The notes below the pieces were generated by a model that saw only the letters and a program-made list of their open reading frames with translations, was not told the DNA's origin and ran no database searches. 64,000 nt of DNA, taken from Oceaniovalibus guishaninsula JLT2003. Its GTDB lineage: Bacteria > Pseudomonadota > Alphaproteobacteria > Rhodobacterales > Rhodobacteraceae. Numbering within the stretch: position 1 is the stretch's first letter; every line of letters starts with the position of its first letter. The stretch is from positions 62,001 to 126,000 of the forward strand of contig NZ_AMGO01000047.1 in the NCBI RefSeq assembly GCF_000299575.1. The letters are read 5' to 3'. Positions 3,392 to 47,280 of this stretch are shown one piece after another. A program made the translations under genes and the position numbers.

Positions 3392-3721
3392 TCAGTACCG
3401 CCGTTGCAGCGTAGGCGGCACGCGCATCATCTTCGTGACCGTGCCATCCGTGTCATAGGTGGCCACCTGCGCCCCGTCGCGGATTGCCGCCAGCCTGTCC
3501 CTGGCAGCGGCGATCCCGCGCATCGCCGCCTGCAACAATTGCTGGTTCAGGGCCGCCTTGGCGCCGATGGCCTCGATCTCGGCCGCGCTCAGGTCGGCCA
3601 GCGCGTCGATGGCGCGTTCCTTCGGCCCCTCCAGCCGCGATAGGGCGGCGAAATCGCCCTTCAGAAGCGCCGCGCGCTCGTCCTCCAGCAGACGGGCAAG
3701 GTCGGTCCGGTTACGCCGCAT
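3392..3721 (-). CDS. flgN: FlgN-like flagellar chaperone
   Basis: A 109-residue, almost wholly helical and charged protein (RTDLARLLEDERAALLKGDF, LSRLEGPKERAIDALA, LNQQLLQAAMRGIAAARDRL). This is the pattern of short FlgN proteins, cytoplasmic export chaperones for the hook-associated proteins FlgK and FlgL. Its start overlaps the end of the rod-binding gene by 11 bp, so the two form one transcript. The assignment rests on helix pattern, size and flagellar neighbours; sequence conservation in FlgN is low. Confidence 0.65.
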   Translation of the reverse strand: MRRNRTDLARLLEDERAALLKGDFAALSRLEGPKERAIDALADLSAAEIEAIGAKAALNQQLLQAAMRGIAAARDRLAAIRDGAQVATYDTDGTVTKMMRVPPTLQRRY

Positions 3722-10625: not shown

Positions 10626-11136
10626 CGTTTCTGCAAGGGGCATCCATAGCGGCAAAGCCACACTCGCCGGCTTCCCGCGGATTCGCGCCGCAAACCCTGA
10701 GTCAATGCCATAGTTCTGTTGCGCCCCGTTCCGGCGGCGGGCTAGGTTGGGCATGCGATTCATGCCAGATGGGGGACAGGACAGCGGCAGCATAAGACCC
10801 CGGATCCGGGCGGCGTTTTCGAGCGCGCCGCGACCGACCGAACGGTGCTTGCGACGTGGGATCGGGCCTCTGCCAGGGCCAAAAATCCGACTTCGCCGAC
10901 ATGCCGGACGCTGACAGTCCACAAAGCAAAGCCGCGCAGGCGCGCCTAATCCGGCCGGACCTTACCGTCCGCGCCCGGTGGGGTGCTGTCCTGACGGCCC
11001 CGATGCAGTATCGGCGCGGCGGCTTTCGGGCGGCCCTGCCGGTGCCCGGCATCGGCTTGCCCGGCGGTCGGGGTCGCATGCAATGCGCGTCCGGGGGGAT
11101 GCGTTGGGACAGGCAATGCAGAAGGGCGACCGGCGA
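10626..11136. other. Non-coding region upstream of dnaA
   Basis: About 510 bp with no convincing gene. One small palindrome is visible (GGCATG 10750-10755, 5-bp loop, CATGCC 10761-10766). No cluster of TTATNCACA-type DnaA boxes and no AT-rich unwinding element were found by eye, so I cannot call an origin here. It presumably holds the dnaA promoter and leader. Confidence 0.5.
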
Positions 11137-12525
11137 ATGACACGCGATAGCTGGGGAATCGTGAAACAGGATCTGAAGCTGAAGGTCGGGCACAACAACT
11201 TCGTCACCTGGATCGAGCCGCTGGAATTCGGCAGCCTCGACGACGGTATCCTGACCTTCCGCGTGCCGTCGATGTTCATCGGAAACTGGGTCAGCCGCTA
11301 TTTCTGCGACCAGATCATCGACGAGGCGAATGCCCGCGGCGCCGGCGTGCGGCGGCTGGCCTTCGTCGTCGGCGAACCGGCCAACCGTCCAGTCCCCTGC
11401 AACGGCGAACCGGATGCCGCCCCGGCGGATAAGGCGCCCGCGCCGGCACGGACCGCCGCGCCCGCGTCCGGCATGACCATCACCGGCGCGCGTCTGAACG
11501 AGAATTACACCTTCGACGCCTTCGTGGTCGGCAAGCCGAACGAGCTGGCCTATTCCGCTGCTCGCCGCGTAGCCGAGGGCGGGCCGGTGACGTTCAATCC
11601 GCTGTTCCTTTACGGCGGCGTGGGGCTGGGCAAGACCCACCTGATGAATGCGATCGCCTGGGAATTGCGCGCTCGCGATCCGGGCGCGCGCGTGCTGTAC
11701 ATGTCGGCCGAACAGTTCATGTATCGCTTCGTGCAGGCCCTGCGCGACCGGCAGATGATCGACTTCAAGCAGATCTTCCGGTCGGTCGATGTGCTGATGG
11801 TGGACGATGTGCAGTTCATCGCCGGCAAGGACAGCACGCAGGAGGAATTCTTTCATACCTTCAACGCCTTGATCGAGCAGGGAAAGCAGATCATCATTTC
11901 CGCCGATACCGCCCCCGGCGAGATTTCGGGGCTGGAGCGGCGGGTCGTCAGCCGTCTGCAATCGGGGCTGGTGGTCGATCTGCACCCGACCAGCTACGAG
12001 CTGCGGCTGGGGATTTTGCAGCGCAAGGTCGAACAGTTCCGCGATCAGTTCGCCGGTGTGCGGATCGGCGAGGGCGTGCTGGAGATGGTGGCGCACCGGA
12101 TCACATCGAACGTGCGCGAGCTGGAGGGCGCGCTGATGCGGCTTTTCGCCTTCGGATCGCTGATCGACCGGGGCGAGGTCGATCAGGAAGCGACGCGCGA
12201 ATGCCTGTCGGACCTGATGCGCACCTACGACCGGCGCGCCAGCATCGACGAGATCCAGCGCAAGGTGGCCGATCACTACAACATCCGCATCAGCGATCTG
12301 GTCGGACCGAAGCGCACGCGCATCTATTCGCGGCCGCGGCAGGTGGCGATGTTCCTTGCCAAGGAATTCACCGACCGTTCGCTGCCCGAGATCGGGCGCC
12401 GCTTCGGCGGCCGCGATCACACGACGATCCTGCACGGGATCCGGGCCATCGCCAAGCTGTGCGATACCGACAGCCAGACGGCCGAGGATGTGGACATGCT
12501 GCGCCGGGTGCTGCGCGACATCTGA
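11137..12525 (+). CDS. dnaA: Chromosomal replication initiator protein DnaA
   Basis: 462-residue AAA+ initiator that binds DnaA boxes and opens oriC. Domain I is at residues 1-90 (MTRDSWGIVKQDLKLKVG onward), followed by an Ala/Pro-rich linker (about 90-115). The AAA+ core has Walker A GGVGLGKTHLMNAI and Walker B VLMVDDVQFI. Domain IV carries the DnaA signature FGGRDHTTILHGIRAI. The ATG at 11137 matches the usual start of the family; an in-frame ATG 7 codons upstream (11116) and more distant ones are possible. dnaN follows after 73 bp. Confidence 0.97.
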   Translation: MTRDSWGIVKQDLKLKVGHNNFVTWIEPLEFGSLDDGILTFRVPSMFIGNWVSRYFCDQIIDEANARGAGVRRLAFVVGEPANRPVPCNGEPDAAPADKAPAPARTAAPASGMTITGARLNENYTFDAFVVGKPNELAYSAARRVAEGGPVTFNPLFLYGGVGLGKTHLMNAIAWELRARDPGARVLYMSAEQFMYRFVQALRDRQMIDFKQIFRSVDVLMVDDVQFIAGKDSTQEEFFHTFNALIEQGKQIIISADTAPGEISGLERRVVSRLQSGLVVDLHPTSYELRLGILQRKVEQFRDQFAGVRIGEGVLEMVAHRITSNVRELEGALMRLFAFGSLIDRGEVDQEATRECLSDLMRTYDRRASIDEIQRKVADHYNIRISDLVGPKRTRIYSRPRQVAMFLAKEFTDRSLPEIGRRFGGRDHTTILHGIRAIAKLCDTDSQTAEDVDMLRRVLRDI

Positions 12526-14810: not shown

Positions 14811-19094
<4,284 letters not shown>

Positions 19095-36878: not shown

Positions 36879-37625
36879 GTGAGGGACCGATCCATCCGCC
36901 TGGCCGGGGTTCTGGCGGCGCTTTGGGCCGTTGCGGGCCTTGCGGCCTTTGCATGGCCGGGCGTCGCGATCGCGGCGGTGTGCCTGTCGTTCGGGGCGGC
37001 GATGGCGCTGTTTCAAGCGGTGTCGGGCCTGCGCTTTCCGCCGCGCCTGACAATCGGGGTGGTCGCTTTTTCGGCGGCCGCGCTGCTGGGCGGCGAATGG
37101 GCGGATGTCTACGAGGCGGTGCCCTGGTGGGATCTGGCACTGCACGCGGCCTCGGCCTGGATGCTGGCGGCGGTGGGCATGGCGCTGGGTCTGCTGGCCA
37201 CGGCGGGGGCGCGGCCGCGCACGGCGGTCTGGATCCTGTCGATCCTGGCCTTCGGCTTCGCGATGATGGTCGGAGCGATGTGGGAGGTGCTGGAATTCAC
37301 GCTCGACACCCTGTTCGGGACCGATGCGCAGGATGGCGGCAACATCGACACGATGACCGATATCGTCGCCAACACCGCCGGGGCGCTGGGCGGGGTCGTG
37401 GTGGCGCATGCCGCCGTCGCGTCGGGCCGCCGGGTTCCGCCGGGCGGCGTGCTGCTGGATTTCGTGGCGATGAACCCGGTGATCTACGCGGAGTGGCGCG
37501 GCCCGCTAGTCCCGCGCCAGACGGGCCAGACGGGCCGCCGCGAGGCCCGAGCGCACGGCGCCTTCCAGCGTGGCAGGCAGGCCGGTGGCGACGTGATCGC
37601 CGGCGAGGAACAGGTTGGGCCATGA
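36879..37625 (+). CDS. Multi-pass membrane protein, DUF2238-like
   Basis: 248 residues with about six hydrophobic helices (LAGVLAALWAVAGLAAFAWP, AVWILSILAFGFAMMVGAMW). A conserved-looking MWEVLEFTLDTLFGTDAQDG stretch precedes the last helix (DIVANTAGALGGVVVAHAAV). The start is GTG 36879, 20 bp after gnd. The last 40 residues are hydrophilic, Arg/Gln-rich, and lie antisense to the end of hpnE (120-bp tail-to-tail overlap), so this tail may be of little functional weight. Function not recognised; the helix pattern suggests the YjdF/DUF2238 group. Confidence 0.6.
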   Translation: MRDRSIRLAGVLAALWAVAGLAAFAWPGVAIAAVCLSFGAAMALFQAVSGLRFPPRLTIGVVAFSAAALLGGEWADVYEAVPWWDLALHAASAWMLAAVGMALGLLATAGARPRTAVWILSILAFGFAMMVGAMWEVLEFTLDTLFGTDAQDGGNIDTMTDIVANTAGALGGVVVAHAAVASGRRVPPGGVLLDFVAMNPVIYAEWRGPLVPRQTGQTGRREARAHGAFQRGRQAGGDVIAGEEQVGP

Positions 37626-38759
37626 CGTCCGCGCCGCGCGCCGCAGGCCCACGCCCTGCGGCGACTGATCGAAGGTCGCGGCGCGTTCGCGCACCAGCCG
37701 CGCGGGCGGCGTCGTTTGCGGCAGGTCCGTGCCGTGATGGGCGGCGGCGGCCCGCACGTCCCCCCAGAGGCGGGACAGGGCCGCGTCGCGCGGCAGGCCG
37801 TCCAGCGGCGACGCTTCGGACGCCGAGACGGTGACGGACACCACGTCGCCGCGCCGGAAAAGCCAGTGCGCATCCGCCCCGACAAGCGCCAGCAGCGGCG
37901 GCAGGCCGGACGGGCCGGTGCGGAAATGGGCGTTCAGGATCGTGCGGCCCGATCGCGGCCCAGGCGTGCCCGGCAGCAGCGCCGCCATCTGCCGGGGCGG
38001 CACGGCCAGGATCGCCACGTCGCCGGATCGCAGGACGCGCGTTCCGTCGGCCGTATGGATGGCGCGCAGCGTTCGGCCGGTGTCGAGCGTCTGCACCGGG
38101 CAGCGCAGCCGCAAATCCACCCCGCGCGCGGCCAGACGCGCCAGCGCCGGATCGACCAGCGCGGTCCCCAGCCCGCTGGGCGCGAAGACGGGCCGGGCGG
38201 CGGCGCGGCCACGGGCGAAGCTGCGCAGCAGGGCGGCGCGCAGCAGGGCGGCGCTGGCCGTCTCGGGCGGCTCGTTCAGGACGGCGCGCGTCATCGGATC
38301 CCAGAACCTGCGCCAGGCAGGCCCCAGCGGCAGGGTATCAGCCACGCTTCGGCCGCGCCGGGCGGCCGTCAGGCGGGCGATGTCGCGCGCCATCGCCGCG
38401 GCGCCGATGCCGGGGGGGCGTGCCGCGCGCGACAGGATGCCGAAGGGGCCGGCGCCGGGGCGGATCGTCCAGCCGGTGCCGGTGAGCAGATCGAGGAAGG
38501 GATAGGCCGCGTCGCCTGTTTCCAGCAGATGCGCGCCGCCGATCCGGTCGGCCCAGTCCAGCACGGCGCTGTTGCCCGACAGGATCAGGTGGTTGCCGTT
38601 GTCGATGACGCGGCCCAGCCGGGCGTCGGGGAAGCTGCGGCAGCGGCCCCCGGCCTTGGGCGACGCTTCGTAGATCGTGACGGCAAAGCCGTCCGAGGAC
38701 AGATCCTCAGCCGCGACAAGCCCGGCAAGGCCCGCGCCGATGACATGCGCGTGCCTCAA
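37506..38759 (-). CDS. hpnE: Hydroxysqualene dehydroxylase HpnE (FAD-dependent, CrtI-like fold)
   Basis: 417-residue flavoprotein that reduces hydroxysqualene to squalene. The FAD motif is HVIGAGLAGLVAAEDLSSDG with GGRCRSFPDARLGRVIDNGN just after. The region VIDNGNHLILSGNSAVLDWA is typical of HpnE, and the C-terminal FAD motif is NLFLAGDHVATGLPATLEGA. The start must be a TTG at 38757-38759, which overlaps the hpnD stop as TTGA; no ATG or GTG lies before the dinucleotide-binding strand. Third gene of hpnC-hpnD-hpnE. Confidence 0.9.
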   Translation of the reverse strand: MRHAHVIGAGLAGLVAAEDLSSDGFAVTIYEASPKAGGRCRSFPDARLGRVIDNGNHLILSGNSAVLDWADRIGGAHLLETGDAAYPFLDLLTGTGWTIRPGAGPFGILSRAARPPGIGAAAMARDIARLTAARRGRSVADTLPLGPAWRRFWDPMTRAVLNEPPETASAALLRAALLRSFARGRAAARPVFAPSGLGTALVDPALARLAARGVDLRLRCPVQTLDTGRTLRAIHTADGTRVLRSGDVAILAVPPRQMAALLPGTPGPRSGRTILNAHFRTGPSGLPPLLALVGADAHWLFRRGDVVSVTVSASEASPLDGLPRDAALSRLWGDVRAAAAHHGTDLPQTTPPARLVRERAATFDQSPQGVGLRRAARTSWPNLFLAGDHVATGLPATLEGAVRSGLAAARLARLARD

Positions 38760-39616
38760 CGCGCGGGGCGCAGGGCGGCGAGGCCCGCGTCGATCAGCTT
38801 GCCGGGGCGCGACCGGCGGGGCGGCGGCGCGGACCAGTCCCGTTCCCAGCGGGTCAGCAAGCGTTCGTAGGGACCGAGCATCATCAGCGCCGGCAGCAGC
38901 CGCGACCGCCGGTGCGCGCCGACCAGCGCCCCGGCGCGCGCGAACGCGGCGCGCGCCTGACGGCCCAGATCGGCGCGGGCCAGCGGCAGGTTGGGGTGGC
39001 GGGCGGCGATGGCCGGATCGGCGGGCACCCCGGTCCGCGACAGCACATCGGCCGGCAGATACAGCCGGCCGCGGCGCGCGTCGTCGGCCACGTCGCGCAG
39101 GATGTTGACCAGTTGCAGCCCATGCGCGAGATCCAGCGCGAAACGGCGCGACGGCTCGCCCCGCCAGGCCCCGAAGCAATGCATCGACAGGATGCCGACG
39201 GCCCCGGCCACGCGGCGGATATAGGCGGTCAGGACAGCTGCGTCGGGGGCGACGATGGCATCGGCGTCCATTCGCATGCCGTCGAGGATCATCATGAATT
39301 CGTCCTTCGGCAGATCGGCCGAGGCAAGGGCGCGCGCGATCTCGGCCCCGATGGCGGTGGCGGGCGCGCCGGCATAGACGGCGTCGATCTCGGCCTGCCA
39401 GCGGTCGAGGAGGCGGGCGGTCGCGGCATCGTTCGGCGCGTCGTCGTCGGCGATGTCGTCCACCGCGCGGCAGAAGGCATAGACGGCGTGGATCGCCTGG
39501 CGCCGCACGGGCGGCAGGATGCGCATGCCGGCGGCGAAGCTGGATCCGGCGCCTGAGACGACGCGGCGCACCTCGGCCCGGTCGGCGTCGGGGGTCGTGG
39601 CGGCGGCGAAGCTCAT
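38756..39616 (-). CDS. hpnD: Presqualene diphosphate synthase HpnD
   Basis: 286-residue trans-isoprenyl diphosphate synthase (squalene/phytoene synthase family) that joins two farnesyl diphosphates into presqualene diphosphate. Both Asp-rich Mg sites are visible: AVYAFCRAVDDIADDDAPND and LVNILRDVADDARRGRLYLP. The start SSFAAGMRILPPVRRQAIHA is typical of HpnD. The ATG overlaps the hpnC stop by 4 bp. An in-frame reading through hpnC is rejected. Confidence 0.92.
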   Translation of the reverse strand: MSFAAATTPDADRAEVRRVVSGAGSSFAAGMRILPPVRRQAIHAVYAFCRAVDDIADDDAPNDAATARLLDRWQAEIDAVYAGAPATAIGAEIARALASADLPKDEFMMILDGMRMDADAIVAPDAAVLTAYIRRVAGAVGILSMHCFGAWRGEPSRRFALDLAHGLQLVNILRDVADDARRGRLYLPADVLSRTGVPADPAIAARHPNLPLARADLGRQARAAFARAGALVGAHRRSRLLPALMMLGPYERLLTRWERDWSAPPPRRSRPGKLIDAGLAALRPAR

Positions 39617-40473
39617 GGAGCGAACCGCAGGGCCTGCAGCCCCGCGCGCGCGAAATCCAGCCGCGACAGGGCGATGCGGTCGGCCAGCGGATCGCCCGCC
39701 CGCAGCCGCGCCGACAGCCGCCTTGCCGCGAAAATTGTCGCGGCTGCCTGCATGCGCAGGCCACGCGTGGCGATGCGGCGGGGCAGGGGGGCGGCGTCGC
39801 GCAGCAGCGCGTCGCTGGCATCGAGCGTGCGCTGGACGACGCGCCGCAAGGCGGGCGTCAGGGTCGGCGCGGCAAGGTCGGCATCGTCGGCGCCCGCCTC
39901 GGCCATCCAGTCGCCGGGCAGATAGCGGCGGCGCAGCAGCCGCCAGTCGTCGCCCATGTCCTGCACGTGGTTGAGGATTTGCAGCGCGGCGCAAAGCGCG
40001 TCCGAAGGCGGTTGCGCGGCGCGTCCGGCATCGTTCACGATCAGCAGGAAGCGCCCCACCGGCACGGCCGAGGACGCGCAATAGCCCATCAGGTCGGACC
40101 AGTCGGCACAGGCGATGCCGGTGGCGTCCCGGCGGAAGGCGGCCAGCAGGTCGCGTGCGGCATCCAGCGCCGCGCCGGAGCCGCCCAGGGTGCGACGCAG
40201 CGCCGCGCCCGGATTGTCGGGATGGCCGTGCAGCAGGCCGGATTCCAGCGCCTCCAGCGCTGCCAGTCGGACCGACGCAGACGCCGTCGGGTCGTCGGCG
40301 CAATCGTCGGCGGCGCGGGCGAAATTGTAGAAAGCGACCACCTTGGGCGCGACATGGCGCGGCAACAGACGCGAGGCGACGGCGAAATTCTCGTTCCTTG
40401 CCGCGGGGTTCAGGAGAACGGGGCGCGCCGACGCTGTATTGCGCCGGGGGATTTCCGCGTGAAGATTCTGCAT
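39613..40473 (-). CDS. hpnC: Hydroxysqualene synthase HpnC
   Basis: 286-residue paralogue of HpnD that converts presqualene diphosphate to hydroxysqualene. It has NENFAVASRLLPRHVAPKVV near the N-terminus (typical of HpnC), then FYNFARAADDCADDPTAS and ILNHVQDMGDDWRLLRRRYL. First gene of the minus-strand arm; its ATG (40471-40473) is only 51 bp from the divergent DUF2141-crtN operon. No squalene-hopene cyclase follows, which argues that the squalene serves the adjacent carotenoid genes. Confidence 0.91.
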   Translation of the reverse strand: MQNLHAEIPRRNTASARPVLLNPAARNENFAVASRLLPRHVAPKVVAFYNFARAADDCADDPTASASVRLAALEALESGLLHGHPDNPGAALRRTLGGSGAALDAARDLLAAFRRDATGIACADWSDLMGYCASSAVPVGRFLLIVNDAGRAAQPPSDALCAALQILNHVQDMGDDWRLLRRRYLPGDWMAEAGADDADLAAPTLTPALRRVVQRTLDASDALLRDAAPLPRRIATRGLRMQAAATIFAARRLSARLRAGDPLADRIALSRLDFARAGLQALRFAP

Positions 40474-40524
40474 GACAATCCCGAAAGAAAACTTACTTCG
40501 CCCCCCAAGGGTGAAGAGGATGGA
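40474..40524. promoter_or_regulatory. Shared divergent control region of the hpn and crt operons
   Basis: Only 51 bp separate the two start codons, so the promoters must overlap. It contains a stem CTTCGCCC (40496-40503) / GGGTGAAG (40509-40516) with one G-T pair, ending beside the ribosome site AGAGGA of the DUF2141 gene. No -35/-10 pair could be assigned with confidence. Confidence 0.5.
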
Positions 40525-40947
40525 ATGACCGACTGCAAGAGGGTTCTGGCGCTGCTTGCCGGTTTGTCCGCGACCGGCGCCCAGATGGCGATGGCGGCGG
40601 ATGTCACGATCGACGTCGCAAACCTGCGTAACGCGGCGGGGCTGGTGCATGTCGCCTTGTGCCCCGAGGAATCGTTTACCAAGCCGCAATGTCCGTGGCG
40701 CGCCAGCGCGCGTGCGACCGATCCGCGCGTGACGGTTACGGGGGTGCCGGCGGGCGTCTATGCCGCGCAGGCGTTTCACGACGAGAATGCCGATGGCAGG
40801 TTGAACCGGCGGATGTTCCGCCCCCTGGAAGGGCTGGGGTTTTCACGCGATGCACCCATGCGGCGCGGGCCGCCCCGCTTCGGCGACGCGGCCGTGCGAA
40901 TCGACGGCGACAGCAGGATGACGATCAACATGAGATATTACCGATGA
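40525..40947 (+). CDS. DUF2141 domain protein, periplasmic
   Basis: 140 residues. The N-terminus RVLALLAGLSATGAQMAMAA is a signal peptide. The mature part is a small beta-sandwich of the DUF2141 type: VANLRNAAGLVHVALCPEES, GVPAGVYAAQAFHDENADGR (conserved Y-A-x2-x-F-H-D-N-x-G-x-L core), then FRPLEGLGFSRDA. The function of the family is unknown. It is the first gene of the carotenoid arm and is coupled to crtN by ATGA, suggesting a role in pigment handling or the envelope. Confidence 0.85.
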   Translation: MTDCKRVLALLAGLSATGAQMAMAADVTIDVANLRNAAGLVHVALCPEESFTKPQCPWRASARATDPRVTVTGVPAGVYAAQAFHDENADGRLNRRMFRPLEGLGFSRDAPMRRGPPRFGDAAVRIDGDSRMTINMRYYR

Positions 40948-42494
40948 ATGCACCAATGCAGACCGAAGGCCGCCATGTCGTCGTGGTCGGCGCGGGGCCG
41001 GGCGGGCTGGCCAGCGCCATGCTGTTGCGCGCAGCGGGCGCGCGGGTGACGGTTGTGGAACGGTCCGACCGGGTGGGCGGACGGACGGCCAGCTTTACCC
41101 AGGACGGATTCACCTTCGATTACGGGCCGACCTTCTATCTCTATCCCCAGGTTTTGCGCGAGATCTTCGCGGCCTGCGGTCGGTCGCTGGATGCCGAGGT
41201 GGATTTGCGGCGGCTGGATCCGATGTATCGGCTGCAATTCGACGACGGCAACACCTTCGACGCCACCCCCGATATCGAGCGGCTGACCGCCGAGGCGGCG
41301 CGCATCTCGCCCGCCGACGCGCCGAACGTGCGCCGCTATCTGACCGAGAATACCGCCAAGTTCGACGCCTTCCGGCCCATCCTTCAGCGGCCCTTCCTGG
41401 GAATGCGCGATCTGGTGCGGATGGACATGATGCGCGCGCTGCCGCTGTTCCGGCCGTGGCTGACCGTGGATCAGGATCTCAAGCGCTGGTTCCGGCATCC
41501 CGACCTGCGGCTGGCCTTCAGCTTTCAGTCGAAATATCTGGGGATGAGCCCCTTCAAGTGTCCGTCGCTGTTCACCATCGTCGCGCATGTGGAATACGGA
41601 TTCGGCGTCTATCATCCCATCGGCGGCTGCAACGCGATCCCGCGGGCGATGGCGCGGGTTCTGGACGATATGGGCGTCGATATCCGCCTGAACGAAGGCG
41701 CGGAGCGGATCGAGTTCGAAGGCCGCCGCGCGAAGGCCGTGCGCACGGCGCACGGGACAATCGAGGCCGACGCGGTGGTGGTGAACGGCGACTTCGCCTC
41801 GACCATCCGCAAGCTGATCCCCGACAGGCTGCGCAGGCGGTGGACGGACAGCCGGATCGACGCCAAGAAATATTCCTGTTCGACCTTCATGCTGTATCTG
41901 GGAATCGAGGGGGTGCTGAAGGATCTCAGCCATCACACGATCTATCTGTCGAAGGATTACCTCGAGAACATCCGCGAGATCGACGCCGGCCTCGCCCCGA
42001 AAGAGCCGACCTTCTATGTCCAGAATGCCGGCGTGACCGATCCGACGCTGGCGCCCGAGGGGCATTCGACGCTCTACGTTCTGGTGCCCACCGGCAACCT
42101 GTCGGGCGAGGAGGACTGGGAGACGCTGGCGCCGCTTTACCGCGAGAAGATCCTCGACCGTCTGTCGCGCCTGTCGGGGCATGACATCCGCCCCCGCATC
42201 CGGACCGAACGGATGCTGACGCCCGCCGACTGGGAGGCGCAGATGGGCATTTTTCGGGGTGCCACGTTCAATCTGGCGCATAACCTCGGGCAGATGCTGC
42301 ACCGGCGCCCGCGCAACAGGTTCGAGGATGTGGACGGCGTCTATCTGACCGGCGGCGGCACCCATCCCGGCAGCGGCTTGCCCACCATCTTCGAAAGCGC
42401 GAGGATCGCATCGAAGCTGGCGGCGCGGGATATCGGGCTGGACTGGCCCGACGGGTTCATCCCAGATCTGGACGTAAGGGAGGCGGCGGAATGA
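40944..42494 (+). CDS. crtN: CrtN-type C30 carotenoid desaturase (squalene / diapophytoene desaturase)
   Basis: 516-residue FAD-dependent carotenoid desaturase. The FAD motif is HVVVVGAGPGGLASAMLLRA and DGFTFDYGPTFYLYPQVLRE follows. The middle FGVYHPIGGCNAIPRAMARV and the C-terminal GGGTHPGSGLPTIFESARIA are CrtN/CrtI signatures. It should introduce conjugated double bonds into a C30 chain, here most simply squalene made by HpnCDE. The second, CrtP-like desaturase follows with a 4-bp overlap. A C40 CrtI role is unlikely because no C40 phytoene synthase (crtB) is present in the window. Confidence 0.86.
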   Translation: MNAPMQTEGRHVVVVGAGPGGLASAMLLRAAGARVTVVERSDRVGGRTASFTQDGFTFDYGPTFYLYPQVLREIFAACGRSLDAEVDLRRLDPMYRLQFDDGNTFDATPDIERLTAEAARISPADAPNVRRYLTENTAKFDAFRPILQRPFLGMRDLVRMDMMRALPLFRPWLTVDQDLKRWFRHPDLRLAFSFQSKYLGMSPFKCPSLFTIVAHVEYGFGVYHPIGGCNAIPRAMARVLDDMGVDIRLNEGAERIEFEGRRAKAVRTAHGTIEADAVVVNGDFASTIRKLIPDRLRRRWTDSRIDAKKYSCSTFMLYLGIEGVLKDLSHHTIYLSKDYLENIREIDAGLAPKEPTFYVQNAGVTDPTLAPEGHSTLYVLVPTGNLSGEEDWETLAPLYREKILDRLSRLSGHDIRPRIRTERMLTPADWEAQMGIFRGATFNLAHNLGQMLHRRPRNRFEDVDGVYLTGGGTHPGSGLPTIFESARIASKLAARDIGLDWPDGFIPDLDVREAAE

Positions 42495-43999
42495 GCAGTG
42501 TCGGCATCATCGGCGGCGGTCTGGGCGGCCTCGCCGCGGCGGCGACGCTTGCCGCGCGCGGGCATCGCGTGACGCTGCTGGAAAAGAACGACTGGCTGGG
42601 CGGCAAGGCGGCCCTGCTGGAGGAGGACGGGTTCCGCTTCGACATGGGGCCGACGATCCTGACCATGCCGCGCGTGCTGGAGCGGGTCTTTTCCGAAGCC
42701 GGGCGGCGCATGTCGGATTATCTGGACCTGCGCAGGCTGGATCCGCAATGGCGATGCTTTTACGACGACGGCACGGTTCTGGATCTGCGCGACGATCCGA
42801 AGGACGCGGCCGCCGAGATCGGCAGGCTGTCGCCCCCCGACCGCGCGGGGTTCGAGCGCTTCATGAAGGTCGCCGACCGGCTGTCGGACGTGTCGGACAG
42901 GTTCTTCTTCTGGCGCTCGGTCGAGGATCTGCGCGACACGATGAACCTTAAGCAGAACATGACCCTCGCCACCTTGTCGGACGTGATGGCGCTGCGGATG
43001 CACCGGACTGTCGCGGGGCAGATCAAGAAGGATATCCGCGATCCGCGCGTGCAGCAGATGCTGGAGCATTTCATCCAGTATGTCGGATCGTCGCCGCTGG
43101 CATCGCCGGCCGTGCTGTGCGGCATCGCGCAGATGCAGCAGGGCGAGGGCGTCTGGTATCCGATGGGCGGCACCCGCGCCGTACCCACCGCCCTGACCCG
43201 TCTAGGCGAGGAACTGGGCGTCGATTACCGCACCGGCGTCGATGTGTCCGCGATCGAGGTCGAGAACGGCCGTGCCGTGGCGGTCGTGGCGGATGGCGAA
43301 CGGATCGTGTTCGACAGGATCGTGTCGAACATGGATTCGGTGCGCACCTACCGCGAGCTGATCGGCGGCAATGCCTGGCGCGATTTCGGCCATGCCAAAC
43401 GAGAGGCCGCATGTTCGGGCGTCGTGCTGTATCTGGGGCTCGACCGGGCCTACGAGCATCTGGCGCATCACAACTTCGTCTTCTCGCGCGATCCGAAAGA
43501 GGAGTTTCAGGCGATCTATGACCGGGGCGAACCCGCGCCCGATCCGACCGCCTATATCGCGGCGCCCGCCCGCACCGAACCGGGCGTCGCGCCCGAGGGC
43601 GGCGAGGCGCTGTATGTGCTGGTCCACACGCCGCATCTGCGCCCCGGACACGACTGGTCGCGGATGCTGCCCCCCTACCGGCGCACGATCCTCGACAAGC
43701 TGAAGCGCACCGCCGGCATGGCCGATATCGAGGACCGCATCCGGGTCGAGCGGGTGCTGACGCCGCAGGACATCCACGACCGCTACAAGGTGCTGGACGG
43801 GGCGATCTACGGGCTGGTCAGCCACGGGCGCGTCAACGGCGCGTTCAAGCCCGGCAACCGGTCACGGCAGGTGCGGAACCTGTATCTGGCCGGGGGGTCG
43901 GCGCATCCGGGGCCGGGCATGCCGATGGCGCTGATGTCGGGATGGATCGCCGCCGACAGCCTGCACCAGGACGCCACGGCCAACACCGCGGCCGAGTGA
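42491..43999 (+). CDS. crtP: CrtP-type C30 carotenoid terminal oxidase (diaponeurosporene oxygenase-like)
   Basis: 502-residue paralogue of CrtN that resembles S. aureus CrtP throughout: GIIGGGLGGLAAAATLAARG, FRFDMGPTILTMPRVLERVF, MSDYLDLRRLDPQWRCFYDD, EHFIQYVGSSPLASPAVLCG, HHNFVFSRD and LAGGSAHPGPGMPMALMSGW. CrtP oxidises the terminal methyl of C30 carotenoids to an aldehyde (or acid). This fits the downstream aldehyde dehydrogenase. Coupled to crtN by ATGA and to the acyltransferase by TGATG. Confidence 0.85.
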   Translation: MSSVGIIGGGLGGLAAAATLAARGHRVTLLEKNDWLGGKAALLEEDGFRFDMGPTILTMPRVLERVFSEAGRRMSDYLDLRRLDPQWRCFYDDGTVLDLRDDPKDAAAEIGRLSPPDRAGFERFMKVADRLSDVSDRFFFWRSVEDLRDTMNLKQNMTLATLSDVMALRMHRTVAGQIKKDIRDPRVQQMLEHFIQYVGSSPLASPAVLCGIAQMQQGEGVWYPMGGTRAVPTALTRLGEELGVDYRTGVDVSAIEVENGRAVAVVADGERIVFDRIVSNMDSVRTYRELIGGNAWRDFGHAKREAACSGVVLYLGLDRAYEHLAHHNFVFSRDPKEEFQAIYDRGEPAPDPTAYIAAPARTEPGVAPEGGEALYVLVHTPHLRPGHDWSRMLPPYRRTILDKLKRTAGMADIEDRIRVERVLTPQDIHDRYKVLDGAIYGLVSHGRVNGAFKPGNRSRQVRNLYLAGGSAHPGPGMPMALMSGWIAADSLHQDATANTAAE

Positions 44000-44787
44000 T
44001 GCGCAAGGCCGCGCCCGACGATCCTGTCGCGCTGCGATCGCCCGCGATGTGCCGGTTCTTCGAGGCGGTGATGCGGCGGCAGATGGCGGCGGGGTTCCGG
44101 GCGGTGCGGATCCTGCGGCCCGGATTGCCCGATCTGAACGGCAGGCCGGCGGTGGTGTTCGCCAATCATCCCGGCTGGTGGGATCCGGTCTTCTTCATCG
44201 TACTGCAACGGATGCTGATGCCCGCGCGCGAAGGTTACGGTCCCATCGACGCGACGGCGCTGGAACGCTATGGCTTCATGCGGCGGATCGGCATTTTCGG
44301 GGTCGAACAGGGCACGCCGCGCGGGGCGGCGCGGTTCCTTCGGGTGGGGCGCGCCTTGCTGTCCGATCCGGCGCGGACGATCTGGATGACCGCGCAGGGA
44401 CGCTTCGCCGATCCGCGCGAAAGACCGCCCGCGATCCGGCCCGGTCTGGCGCATCTGATGGCGCGCGTGCCCGGTGCCGTGGCGGTGCCGCTAGCGATGG
44501 AATATCCCTTCTGGTCCGAAAAGAGACCCGAGGCGCTGGCGGCGTTCGGATCGCCCCTGGGCGACCGCGGCAGTGCCGCCGATTGGCAGGCCGCGCTGGA
44601 GGATGGGTTGACCGCGACGCAGGACCGGCTGGCGCAGGCGGCGATGGCGCGCGATCCGGCGCGATTCACGACGCTGCTGGGCGGCAAGCGTGGCGTCGGC
44701 GGCGTCTATGGCGCATGGTCGCGGCTGCGCGCGGCGACCGGCGCGCGGCGTTACGATCCCGATCACCTGCCCGAGCGGACCGACTGA
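43999..44787 (+). CDS. PlsC-type lysophospholipid acyltransferase family protein (probable carotenoid glycoside acyltransferase)
   Basis: 262 residues with the LPLAT fold. The catalytic HxxxxD motif is in VVFANHPGWWDPVFFIVLQR (H57, D62), with the acceptor loop FGVEQGTPRGAARFL and a WMTAQGRFADPRER segment. Position between crtP and the glycosyltransferase suggests that it adds a fatty acid to the carotenoid glycoside, the job done in S. aureus by the unrelated small membrane protein CrtO. This function is inferred from context. Confidence 0.78.
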   Translation: MRKAAPDDPVALRSPAMCRFFEAVMRRQMAAGFRAVRILRPGLPDLNGRPAVVFANHPGWWDPVFFIVLQRMLMPAREGYGPIDATALERYGFMRRIGIFGVEQGTPRGAARFLRVGRALLSDPARTIWMTAQGRFADPRERPPAIRPGLAHLMARVPGAVAVPLAMEYPFWSEKRPEALAAFGSPLGDRGSAADWQAALEDGLTATQDRLAQAAMARDPARFTTLLGGKRGVGGVYGAWSRLRAATGARRYDPDHLPERTD

Positions 44788-44788
44788 G

Positions 44789-45919
44789 ATGACCCTGATC
44801 GTGACGATCCTTGCGATGACCGCGCTTGTGCTGGCAGGGCTTTACGCCGTCGTGACGCTGGTGAACCTGGCGATCTTCGCCACGCCCCGACGGGTGGCGG
44901 ACGGCGACGGTGCGGCGGTGTCGATCCTGATTCCCGCGCGGGACGAGGCCGCGAATATCGACGCCGCGCTGGACGCGGTTCTGGCGCAGCAGGGCATCGG
45001 CCTGGATGTCGTGGTGCTGGATGACGGATCGTCGGACGACACGGCGGCACGCGTCGCCGTCCGCGCGGCCCGCGACCCCCGAGTCCGCCTTGTCCGCGGC
45101 GCGGGGCTGCCGCCCGGCTGGAACGGCAAGCAGCATGCCTGCCACCAGCTTGCGCGCCATGCCCGGCACCCCGTGCTGCTGTTCGTCGATGCGGATGTGC
45201 GCCTTGCGCCCGATGCGGCACTTCGCATGTGGCGATACATGGAGGATCGCGCGTTGGACCTCGTGTCGGGGTTCCCGCGCCAGATCACCCGCACCCTGCC
45301 CGAAATCGTCGTGATTCCGCAGATCTTCGTCGTCCTTCTGGGCTATCTGCCGCTTCCGATGGCCCGGACCAGCGGCAGCAGCGGGTTCGCTGCGGGGTGC
45401 GGTCAGTTGATGATGGTGCGGGCGGACGCCTATCGGCGGGCGGGCGGGCACGCGGCGTTCCGCGACCGGATGCATGACGGCCTGAACCTGCCCCGCAACG
45501 TGCGGCTTTCGGGCGGGCGCACCGACATTCTGGATGCCACGCCCATCGCATCGTGCCGTATGTACGACAACTGGCCCGCCATCCGGCAGGGGTTCACGAA
45601 GAACGCCACGGAAGGCATGGCCCGGCCCGTCGCGCTGCCGGTCTGGACCGTGCTGCTGGGCGGCGGGCATGTGTTGCCGTTCCTGCTGCTGCCGGTTGCA
45701 TGGGCGGGGGGCACGGGCCTGTGGCCGGTCGGTCTGGCGTTGGCGCTGCTGATGGCGGCGCGGACGGCGTTGGCCGTGAAGGTGCGGCAGCATCCGCTGT
45801 CCGTGCTGCTGCATCCCCTGGGCGTCATCGTCACGATCTGGATTCAGTGGGCCGCCTTCATCGGTGCGCAGCGGGGGCGGCAGGCCGTGTGGCGCGGCCG
45901 TGCCTATGACGTGAGTTGA
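44789..45919 (+). CDS. crtQ: Family 2 glycosyltransferase, CrtQ/CruC-like
   Basis: 376-residue membrane-bound GT2. An N-terminal transmembrane helix (MTLIVTILAMTALVLAGLYA) precedes the GT-A domain with SILIPARDEAANIDAALDAV, VVLDDGSSDDTAA, VLLFVDADVRLAPDAALRMW (metal-binding DxD). Two or three C-terminal helices follow (VLLGGGHVLPFLLLPVAWAG). CrtQ in S. aureus and CruC esterify a sugar to a carotenoid carboxylic acid or hydroxyl. The context with crtN, crtP and aldehyde dehydrogenase supports that here; the sugar is unknown. Confidence 0.82.
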   Translation: MTLIVTILAMTALVLAGLYAVVTLVNLAIFATPRRVADGDGAAVSILIPARDEAANIDAALDAVLAQQGIGLDVVVLDDGSSDDTAARVAVRAARDPRVRLVRGAGLPPGWNGKQHACHQLARHARHPVLLFVDADVRLAPDAALRMWRYMEDRALDLVSGFPRQITRTLPEIVVIPQIFVVLLGYLPLPMARTSGSSGFAAGCGQLMMVRADAYRRAGGHAAFRDRMHDGLNLPRNVRLSGGRTDILDATPIASCRMYDNWPAIRQGFTKNATEGMARPVALPVWTVLLGGGHVLPFLLLPVAWAGGTGLWPVGLALALLMAARTALAVKVRQHPLSVLLHPLGVIVTIWIQWAAFIGAQRGRQAVWRGRAYDVS

Positions 45920-47280
45920 CCGGACCGGATGCGATACGGGCCGCGCATGCCCGACTGACGGCGGCCTTCTCGCTGGACATGGTGCCGCCCGTGCCGCAAC
46001 GCATCGCCCGGCTGAAGGATCTGGGCGCGGCCATCGGCGCGGCCCGCGACGACCTGATCGCGGCGGTGTCGCAGGATTTCGGTCCGCGCGCCGAGGTCGA
46101 GACGCTGACGGCCGAGCTGGCCTTCGTGCGGGACGGCCTGCGCCACACGATCCGCCATCTGTCCGGCTGGGCCGCGCCGCGCCGCCGCCGGGTGCTGCGC
46201 CCGGTGCCCGGCCGCACCGATCTGCGGTTCGAGCCGAAGGGCGTCGCCGGGATCCTGTCGCCGTGGAATTATCCCGTGCAACTGGCACTGATGCCGCTGA
46301 TCGCGGCCATCGCGGCGGGCAATCGCGTGATCCTGAAACCGTCCGAGCGCAGCCCGGCCACGTCCGACGCGCTGGTGCGGCTGATCGGGCGGGTCTTTCC
46401 GCCGGACGAGGCGGTGTGCATCACCGGCGGGCCGGACACCGCCGCGCAGCTTTGCGCGCTGCCGCTGGGGCATCTGTTCTTCACCGGCTCGACCGCGACG
46501 GGCCGCAAGGTGGCGCAGGCGGCGGCGGACACGCTGACGCCGGTGACGCTGGAACTGGGCGGCCGCAGTCCGGCCATCGCGCTGCCGGGGGCGGATCCGG
46601 CCCGCCATGCGCCGATGATCGCCTGGGGCAAATGGCTGAGCGCCGGGCAGACCTGCGTCGCGCCCAACCACCTGTGGGTGCCCCGCGGACGTCGGCAGGA
46701 TTGGGCCGATGCGCTGCTGGACCGTGCCGCCGGGTTCGTGCCCCGCGACTATACCGCAATGATCGACGGGCGGGCGGAAACGCGGATGCGCGACATGCTG
46801 GCCGAGGCAGAGGCCGGCGGCGCCACGGTGCGGCAGGTGCCTTCGGATATCGGCATTCCGCCGACGATCGTTCTGGACGCGCCGCCCGGCTGCGCGCTGA
46901 TGACCGAGGAGATTTTCGGTCCCGTGCTGCCCATCCTGCCCTATGACGACATCGAGGATGTCGTCGCGGCCGAAGCGGGCGCGTCGCCACTGGCCGCCTA
47001 TGTGTTCGACACGGATGCCGGCCGAGCGCAGGCGCTTTTGCTGCGGCTTCGCGCCGGCGGCGGCGCGGTCAACGCCACGATCCTGCATCTGGCGCTGCAC
47101 GACCTGCCCTTCGGCGGCATCGGCGAAAGCGGCATGGGCGCCTATCACGGGGTCCGGGGTTTTCGAGAGTTCAGCCATGAACGGGCGACCTTCGTCGCCG
47201 CGCGCGGGCCCTGGCTGCGGCTGCTTTCGCCGCCCTATTTGAAGATCGCGCGACGCCTGTTCGGCAGGATCGGGCGCTAG
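45916..47280 (+). CDS. Class 3-like aldehyde dehydrogenase, probable C30 carotenoid aldehyde dehydrogenase
   Basis: 454-residue NAD(P)-dependent ALDH of the short class 3 / coniferyl aldehyde type. Catalytic residues are visible: Asn118 in ILSPWNYPVQL, Lys141 in VILKPSERSP, Glu213 in TLELGGRSPAIAL and Cys247 in LSAGQTCVAPNHLW. The C-terminal LLSPPYLKIARRLFGRIGR is amphipathic, as in membrane-associated class 3 enzymes. It should oxidise the terminal aldehyde made by CrtP to the acid before glycosylation. The TTG at 45916, overlapping the preceding stop as TTGA, is the best start; the first ATG (Met22) would delete the N-terminal helix. Confidence 0.83.
   Translation: MTGPDAIRAAHARLTAAFSLDMVPPVPQRIARLKDLGAAIGAARDDLIAAVSQDFGPRAEVETLTAELAFVRDGLRHTIRHLSGWAAPRRRRVLRPVPGRTDLRFEPKGVAGILSPWNYPVQLALMPLIAAIAAGNRVILKPSERSPATSDALVRLIGRVFPPDEAVCITGGPDTAAQLCALPLGHLFFTGSTATGRKVAQAAADTLTPVTLELGGRSPAIALPGADPARHAPMIAWGKWLSAGQTCVAPNHLWVPRGRRQDWADALLDRAAGFVPRDYTAMIDGRAETRMRDMLAEAEAGGATVRQVPSDIGIPPTIVLDAPPGCALMTEEIFGPVLPILPYDDIEDVVAAEAGASPLAAYVFDTDAGRAQALLLRLRAGGGAVNATILHLALHDLPFGGIGESGMGAYHGVRGFREFSHERATFVAARGPWLRLLSPPYLKIARRLFGRIGR

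Follow-up and report, generated by a model that had tools for sequence, protein, structure and literature searches.

The window analysed here, a 64,000-nucleotide stretch of the Oceaniovalibus guishaninsula JLT2003 genome (contig NZ_AMGO01000047.1), very probably contains a single-locus gene cluster for C30 carotenoid synthesis by way of squalene. The cluster (37506–47280) was composed of nine genes with intact frames, arranged as two divergent blocks: hpnC-hpnD-hpnE on the minus strand, and DUF2141-crtN-crtP-acyltransferase-GT2-ALDH on the plus strand, where GT2 is a family 2 glycosyltransferase and ALDH an aldehyde dehydrogenase. The assignment of the genes to this pathway was solid. The chemistry in this organism was inferred by orthology; this covers the enzymatic activities, the sequence in which CrtN and CrtP act, the nature of the sugar and acyl group, and oxidation at one or both ends.

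In the proposed pathway, HpnD would convert two molecules of farnesyl diphosphate to presqualene diphosphate, HpnC would convert presqualene diphosphate to hydroxysqualene, and HpnE would form squalene. CrtN would then turn squalene into a diapolycopene-type C30 polyene, the terminal methyl groups of which would be oxidized to aldehydes by CrtP and further to carboxylic acids by the ALDH. The acid would be esterified with a sugar by GT2, and the PlsC-like acyltransferase would then add a fatty acyl chain. The likely product would be a membrane pigment with an antioxidant role, namely an acyl-glycosyl ester of a 4,4'-diapolycopenoic acid, and is probably close to the pigment of Methylobacterium extorquens AM1.

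Gene organization and the predicted squalene-forming enzymes

The nine genes and two divergent operons described in an earlier note on this DNA were all located, and only the starts of hpnE, the ALDH gene, and the acyltransferase gene were corrected. Genes within each block overlapped or were separated by a one-base gap, and 51 bases lay between the blocks. The domain matches were far beyond chance, with E-values of 3e-54 and 9.6e-42 for SQS_PSY, 3e-157 and 1e-127 for crtI_fam, and 4e-71 for Aldedh. The comparison drew on 11 loci from Rhodobacterales (that of the window plus ten from relatives), 12 from other alphaproteobacteria, two of them in the same genome, three from planctomycetes, and three of the C40 type; some of these loci were short (7.9 to 13.7 kb). 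The genes hpnC, hpnD, hpnE, crtN, crtP, the acyltransferase, and GT2 were present in 11 of 11 Rhodobacterales loci, and the ALDH in 10 of 11. Since the block was kept in the relatives, its arrangement is not due to chance. A search of the window against Rfam gave no match at gathering score, and the stretches between the blocks in the window and ten relatives (11 stretches of 71–261 bases), in which a shared regulatory motif was sought, gave no match to four simple patterns (PpsR-type, sigma-E-type, and two -35-like).

All three genes of a squalene route were found. The hpnE gene (37506–38759, minus strand; 417 aa), encoding hydroxysqualene dehydroxylase, exceeded the cut-off of its NCBIfam model TIGR03467 (303.7 against 283.05 bits). 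Its start was assigned to the TTG codon at 38759, which overlaps the stop of hpnD, and the 771-aa mechanical open reading frame was rejected. The adjacent minus-strand genes encode the putative presqualene diphosphate synthase HpnD (38756–39616; 286 aa) and the putative hydroxysqualene synthase HpnC (39613–40473; 286 aa), with best NCBIfam matches to TIGR03465 (240.9 bits) and TIGR03464 (224 bits), respectively. The second-best matches were reciprocal and far lower, 117.5 bits for HpnD to the HpnC model and 81.4 bits for HpnC to the HpnD model. The catalytic-type aspartates Asp53, Asp57, Asp175, and Asp179 of HpnD and Asp56, Asp60, Asp172, and Asp176 of HpnC were invariant in 11 of 11 Rhodobacterales copies. 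These copies all matched the HpnD or HpnC model and also matched the sister and CrtB models with poorer best E-values; this comparison used best E-values for the relatives, while scores were ranked per model for the window copies. The best sequence match of HpnC in the PDB was the HpnC structure 4hd1 (E 1.5e-24). A staphyloxanthin-type entry by a single dehydrosqualene synthase, CrtM, did not fit the locus, in which two synthases and HpnE were present and HpnC matched 4hd1 best; the PDB matches of HpnD to a phytoene synthase, to HpnC, and to CrtM were similarly weak. In Microvirga ossetica and two other alphaproteobacteria, HpnC and HpnD were encoded in one reading frame (L049:16260–17918, L057:8620–10311, and L058:6491–8092).

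C30-type desaturases and the hopanoid and C40 routes

The crtN gene (40944–42494, plus strand; 516 aa) and the crtP gene (42491–43999, plus strand; 502 aa) encode a predicted C30 desaturase and a predicted CrtP-type terminal methyl oxidase, which scored 524.3 and 426.8 bits, respectively, against TIGR02734 (cut-off 238.1). In a tree of 56 desaturase rows, three separate clades were formed by CrtN (24 rows, support 100/99), CrtP (25 rows, 98/98), and C40-type CrtI (6 rows, 100/100), and the two window proteins fell in the CrtN and CrtP clades, respectively. The genetically characterised reference was Azospirillum brasilense Sp7, and the reference rows did not include staphylococcal or M. extorquens proteins. 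The C40-type label was given by a neighbouring synthase in L033, L034, and L035 and by kinship alone in L024, L025, and L026; row L026 was trimmed, and the CrtD row (L035) formed a long branch. The CrtN- and CrtP-type character recorded in the earlier note was borne out by the tree. The Rhodobacterales rows formed one group within each clade (11 rows each, with support of 99/98 for CrtN and 100/99 for CrtP), a pattern consistent with a single common origin of the cluster within the order.

The genome (2,897,133 bases in 68 contigs, given as 99.99% complete) was searched for the genes of competing routes. No match to the squalene-hopene cyclase domains PF13243 and PF13249 was found in the genome at E <= 0.001, whereas among 14 control genomes the same searches were positive in two for the C-domain and in one for the N-domain. 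Three SQS_PSY matches were found, namely HpnC, HpnD, and a 245-aa protein on contig C11. The latter was rejected as a phytoene synthase: it covered only positions 1–151 of the 263 positions of the Pfam model, scored 36.9 bits against the HpnD model, matched no CrtB model at E <= 0.001, and by eye had no second aspartate motif. Among 11 crtI_fam matches in the genome, only CrtN and CrtP were above the cut-off. Two polyprenyl synthases were found, and no reaction centre was matched in the genome. Neither a hopanoid nor a C40 route was therefore visible, given that no cyclase, convincing CrtB, further desaturase above the cut-off, or reaction centre was found and that the polyprenyl synthases numbered two. 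The earlier note had reported neither a squalene-hopene cyclase nor crtB in the window, which holds and extends to the whole genome assembly; the wider search for shc, crtB, and crtI that it proposed recovered no cyclase by either domain, no convincing phytoene synthase, and no C40 crtI above the cut-off.

It is very unlikely that CrtN and CrtP act on C40 phytoene made by the two synthases, as in ordinary Rhodobacterales clusters. Both enzymes belong to the wide crtI_fam model, and 124 of 131 family genomes with a CrtN match hold only relatives of 31–43% identity, read as C40 CrtI or CrtD. However, the window CrtN and CrtP were 31–41% identical to the six C40-type CrtI rows, whereas they were 58.0% and 69.3% identical to CrtN and CrtP of A. 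brasilense Sp7, with strong clade support. Likewise, the best PDB match of HpnD was a phytoene synthase (5iys, E 1.9e-16), with HpnC (4hd1, 6.6e-16) and CrtM (8is6, 4.8e-15) close behind, whereas the squalene models scored far above the CrtB models (240.9 against 97.8 bits for HpnD, and 224 against 69.1 bits for HpnC) and HpnE was present. On the strength of the tree, and with no crtB, no C40 crtI, and no third polyprenyl synthase as a possible CrtE found in the genome, a C40 route was rejected.

A second alternative, that hpnCDE chiefly serve hopanoids or another squalene product and that the desaturase block is independent, is likewise very unlikely. The hpnCDE genes are best known from hopanoid synthesis (PMC12583986), and yet the lack of any cyclase domain match in the genome led to the rejection of a hopanoid role. 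The two blocks lay together in 11 of 11 Rhodobacterales loci. In addition, the hopanoid survey lists four shc sequences in Rhodobacterales (under 1%), and Palleronia is apparently among the genera without shc (PMC12583986).

Several observations weigh against a squalene-route C30 cluster. HpnD and HpnC scored 14% and 11% under their curated cut-offs (278.6 and 250.45 bits, respectively), and phytoene synthase was the first PDB match of HpnD, as described above. The assembly is in 68 contigs, and a gene could sit in a gap. The co-occurrence counts are not unbiased, because the loci were picked by a crtN or crtP match, and the M. extorquens and staphylococcal systems were likened by published description and not by direct protein comparison. 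Nevertheless, squalene as the entry point, as the earlier note had proposed, is supported by the family scores of HpnCDE, by the lack of any visible hopanoid or C40 route, and by the genetics of orthologues in A. brasilense Sp7.

Predicted end-group enzymes and the DUF2141 protein

The three predicted end-group enzymes were encoded downstream of crtP on the plus strand. The PlsC-like putative carotenoid acyltransferase (43942–44787) carried the HX4D motif HPGWWD and was 52% identical to its counterpart at the A. brasilense Sp7 locus (L047). Its first in-frame ATG was at 43942, and 43999 is the likelier start. GT2 (44789–45919; 376 aa), a putative carotenoic acid glycosyltransferase, matched PF00535 with 72.1 bits and was 58% identical to the glycosyltransferase of the Sp7 locus, while its best NCBIfam scores were both under cut-off (113 of 379 bits for HpnB, and 91.5 of 600 bits for CruG). 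The ALDH (45916–47280; 454 aa), with a TTG start and a putative role in the terminal aldehyde-to-acid step, matched PF00171 with 240.5 bits and carried the ELGG and GQTC motifs. The tailoring set of CrtN, CrtP, ALDH, glycosyltransferase, and acyltransferase named in the earlier note was borne out at the gene level, with the expected motifs and with conservation in relatives.

In the ALDH tree, 20 cluster ALDHs, including that of the window, grouped together (100/99), and seven other ALDHs from the window's genome fell outside this clade. The clade was split into a Rhodobacterales–Microvirga branch (11 rows, 100/99) and a second branch (9 rows, 98/93) composed of six other alphaproteobacteria and three planctomycetes. 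The own-genome ALDH L068, the cut ALDH in L056, and the ALDHs near L012 (3615–4823) and L045 (21358 onward) were left out, and rows L067 and L072 probably cover two stretches of a single frame. As outgroups were few, the tree shows kinship and not exclusivity. Among 119 genomes per search in the family of genome G574, CrtP was matched in 16 (E <= 1e-110) and a Microvirga-type ALDH in 17 (E <= 1e-70). Both occurred together in four genomes (G707, G742, G758, and G774), about 2 kb apart in G707 and G758. The other 12 of the 16 CrtP genomes, including G574, were without an ALDH of this type, the only type covered by the search, which speaks against the ALDH as a fixed part of the route.

The tailoring genes varied among relatives. 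A sulfotransferase gene (PF13469) followed GT2 in Palleronia sp. LCG004 (L045:14962–16071) and in genome G048 (L028:14092–15159), with 53% mutual identity, and no ALDH was found within the 20 kb of the latter locus. The sulfotransferases suggest a sulfated carotenoid glycoside. In the Microvirga plasmid cluster, a SAM-dependent methyltransferase, which could methylate the carotenoic acid, lay between crtN and crtP (L049:11618–12700).

Such variation, two relatives with a sulfotransferase and Microvirga with a methyltransferase in the block, bears on a third alternative, in which the pathway holds but yields something other than an acyl-glycosyl acid, either because the ALDH, GT2, or acyltransferase acts on other substrates or because the acid is esterified otherwise. 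This alternative appears unlikely, though less so than a C40 or hopanoid role. It agrees with the weak Pfam match of the acyltransferase (PF01553, 18.0 bits against a gathering score of 23), which also counts against the full pathway proposed, with the one Rhodobacterales locus of 11 that has no ALDH in its 20 kb (L028), and with the cassette of M. extorquens PA1, reported without a glycosylated product (PMC10448405). However, GT2 and the acyltransferase lay beside crtP in 11 of 11 Rhodobacterales and 10 of 12 other alphaproteobacterial loci, and their counterparts in M. extorquens AM1 are backed by deletion and complementation (PMC10448405). For the acylated glycosyl C30 product predicted in the earlier note, the tailoring genes were present and conserved, whereas the exact acid, sugar, and acyl group remain predictions.

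The first gene of the plus block (40525–40947; 140 aa) encodes a DUF2141 protein (PF09912, 76.8 bits; cut-off 24.4), the single PF09912 match in the genome. An apparent signal peptide was seen by eye and two conserved cysteines by alignment, and the protein is probably a secreted accessory protein. DUF2141 genes were present in 7 of 11 Rhodobacterales and 7 of 12 other alphaproteobacterial C30 loci (e.g., L047:15043–15510 and L050:14883–15296), and none was seen in the three C40-type loci compared. The family has been noted earlier beside crtG in Sphingomonadales (PMC5989583 and PMC9241875), which are C40 makers (PMC5989583); its link to C30 clusters may be unreported in the open-licence literature. 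As a tentative joint proposal, the ALDH clade of the alphaproteobacterial C30 clusters might supply the acid-forming step, the secreted DUF2141 protein might bind or move the carotenoid glycolipid outside the cytoplasm, and some Rhodobacterales might sulfate the pigment.

Distribution and comparison with known systems

In the family of the window organism (295 genomes of 294 genera), CrtN was matched at E <= 1e-50 in 131 genomes, of which seven, including its own, reached at least 66% identity, while the other 124 were at 31–43%. CrtP was matched at E <= 1e-110 in eight of 385 sampled genomes of the class, again including that of the window. The nearest named relatives of CrtN were from Palleronia sediminis (86%) and P. 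abyssalis (83%), which places the window organism within Rhodobacterales, in or close to the marine genus Palleronia. The only genome sampled from the genus of the window organism (G066; 99% complete) lacked a close CrtN; its best match was a desaturase sharing 38% identity with CrtN, next to a synthase with 35% identity to HpnD, and these were read as C40 CrtI and CrtB. Among 194 plasmid records with a CrtN match, two from Rhodobacterales (Palleronia sp. LCG004 and Limimaricola variabilis) were at 70–74% and nine from Azospirillum, Indioceanicola, Microvirga, and Gluconobacter at 53–58%, and the next among the matches listed was at 38%. The cluster was plasmid-borne in the two Rhodobacterales and chromosomal in the window organism, as dnaA (10978–12525) and gyrB (15465–18122) lie in the same window.

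Outside Rhodobacterales, the composition of the loci was looser. In the other alphaproteobacterial loci, crtP was present in 12 of 12, crtN, the acyltransferase, and GT2 in 10 of 12 each, and the ALDH in 8 of 12 (one cut); hpnCDE were found in 3 of 12, all with HpnC and HpnD in one reading frame. The planctomycete loci had crtN, crtP (one cut), and ALDH in 3 of 3, the acyltransferase and GT2 in 2 of 3, and hpnCDE in none. Two further genomes (G058 and G107) contained a C30 cluster (L027 and L029) and, at another place, a C40-type crtI next to a synthase gene (L034 and L035), so that C30 and C40 routes appear to coexist in these genomes as well as in Palleronia sp. LCG004.

The squalene route is thus extended to a conserved minority within Rhodobacterales, an order whose desaturases are far more often of the C40 type. 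No report of hpnCDE in Rhodobacterales, or of carotenoids from squalene and crtN in this order, was found in the open-licence literature; a 2022 survey of the squalene route in PNAS may well include Rhodobacterales. The pathway type is already proven in other alphaproteobacteria, so the locus adds a compact new example to a known kind of system. Its additions are modest: the core genes lie in one locus in all 11 Rhodobacterales loci, the ALDHs linked to the cluster form a clade, a probably secreted DUF2141 protein recurs, and two relatives carry a sulfotransferase. For two gaps in the pathway, the cluster-linked ALDH and the DUF2141 gene are direct candidates. The compact locus, whose genome shows no visible hopanoid route, could be transferred whole to a laboratory host. 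The earlier note had called such a cluster unexpected in Rhodobacterales. For alphaproteobacteria, however, the route is not surprising, as it has been genetically proven in A. brasilense and M. extorquens (PMC13274349 and PMC10448405), and a 2024 paper already lists this cluster in Palleronia (PMC11638410).

When compared with the staphylococcal staphyloxanthin route (crtM, N, P, Q, O, and aldH), the window locus shared, by description, the tailoring logic on a C30 chain (PMC10448405), whereas the staphylococcal entry is diapophytoene made by CrtM and that of the window would be squalene made by HpnCDE. The window acyltransferase was of the lysophospholipid type, as in M. extorquens and unlike staphylococcal CrtO, of which a published search found no homologue in M. 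extorquens (PMC10448405).

M. extorquens AM1 (META1p1815–1817, 3663–3665, and 3670) likewise has hpnCDE, crtN, crtP, a glycosyltransferase, and a lysophospholipid acyltransferase, but in separate loci, with hpnCDE adjoining a squalene-hopene cyclase (PMC10448405). In its product, a glucosyl diapolycopenedioic acid carries an octadecenoyl chain. Deletion and complementation served to assign the glycosyltransferase and the acyltransferase: the deletion strain for the former was left with a compound matching the free dioic acid in mass, and that for the latter with one matching the glucosyl acid (PMC10448405). Its ALDH was not found, two candidates being negative (PMC10448405).

Carotenoids are lost from A. 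brasilense Sp7 when either hpnCDE or crtNPOQ is deleted, and squalene builds up in the crtNPOQ mutant (PMC13274349). The published crtNPOQ genes were equated with locus L047 by locus-tag range. Besides the orthologous crtN, crtP, acyltransferase, and GT2, the Sp7 locus shared with the window an ALDH gene beside crtN and a DUF2141 gene. However, hpnCDE lie at a locus separate from that of crtNPOQ and aldH (PMC13274349), the Sp7 ALDH fell on the other branch of the ALDH clade (30% identity to the window ALDH), and its DUF2141 gene follows GT2 whereas that of the window precedes crtN.

The closest layout was that of Palleronia sp. LCG004 (NZ_CP136760.1), in which the nine genes had the identical order. 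The LCG004 cluster lies on a 411 kb plasmid, its sulfotransferase gene is inserted before the ALDH gene, and the ALDH gene is inverted. Elsewhere, the strain carries genes for C40 carotenoids and for photosynthesis as well (PMC11638410). The same report, in the main text of which the words C30 and squalene are absent, named the carotenoid cluster 'crtIP and hpnCD' and listed it in P. marisminoris as well (PMC11638410).

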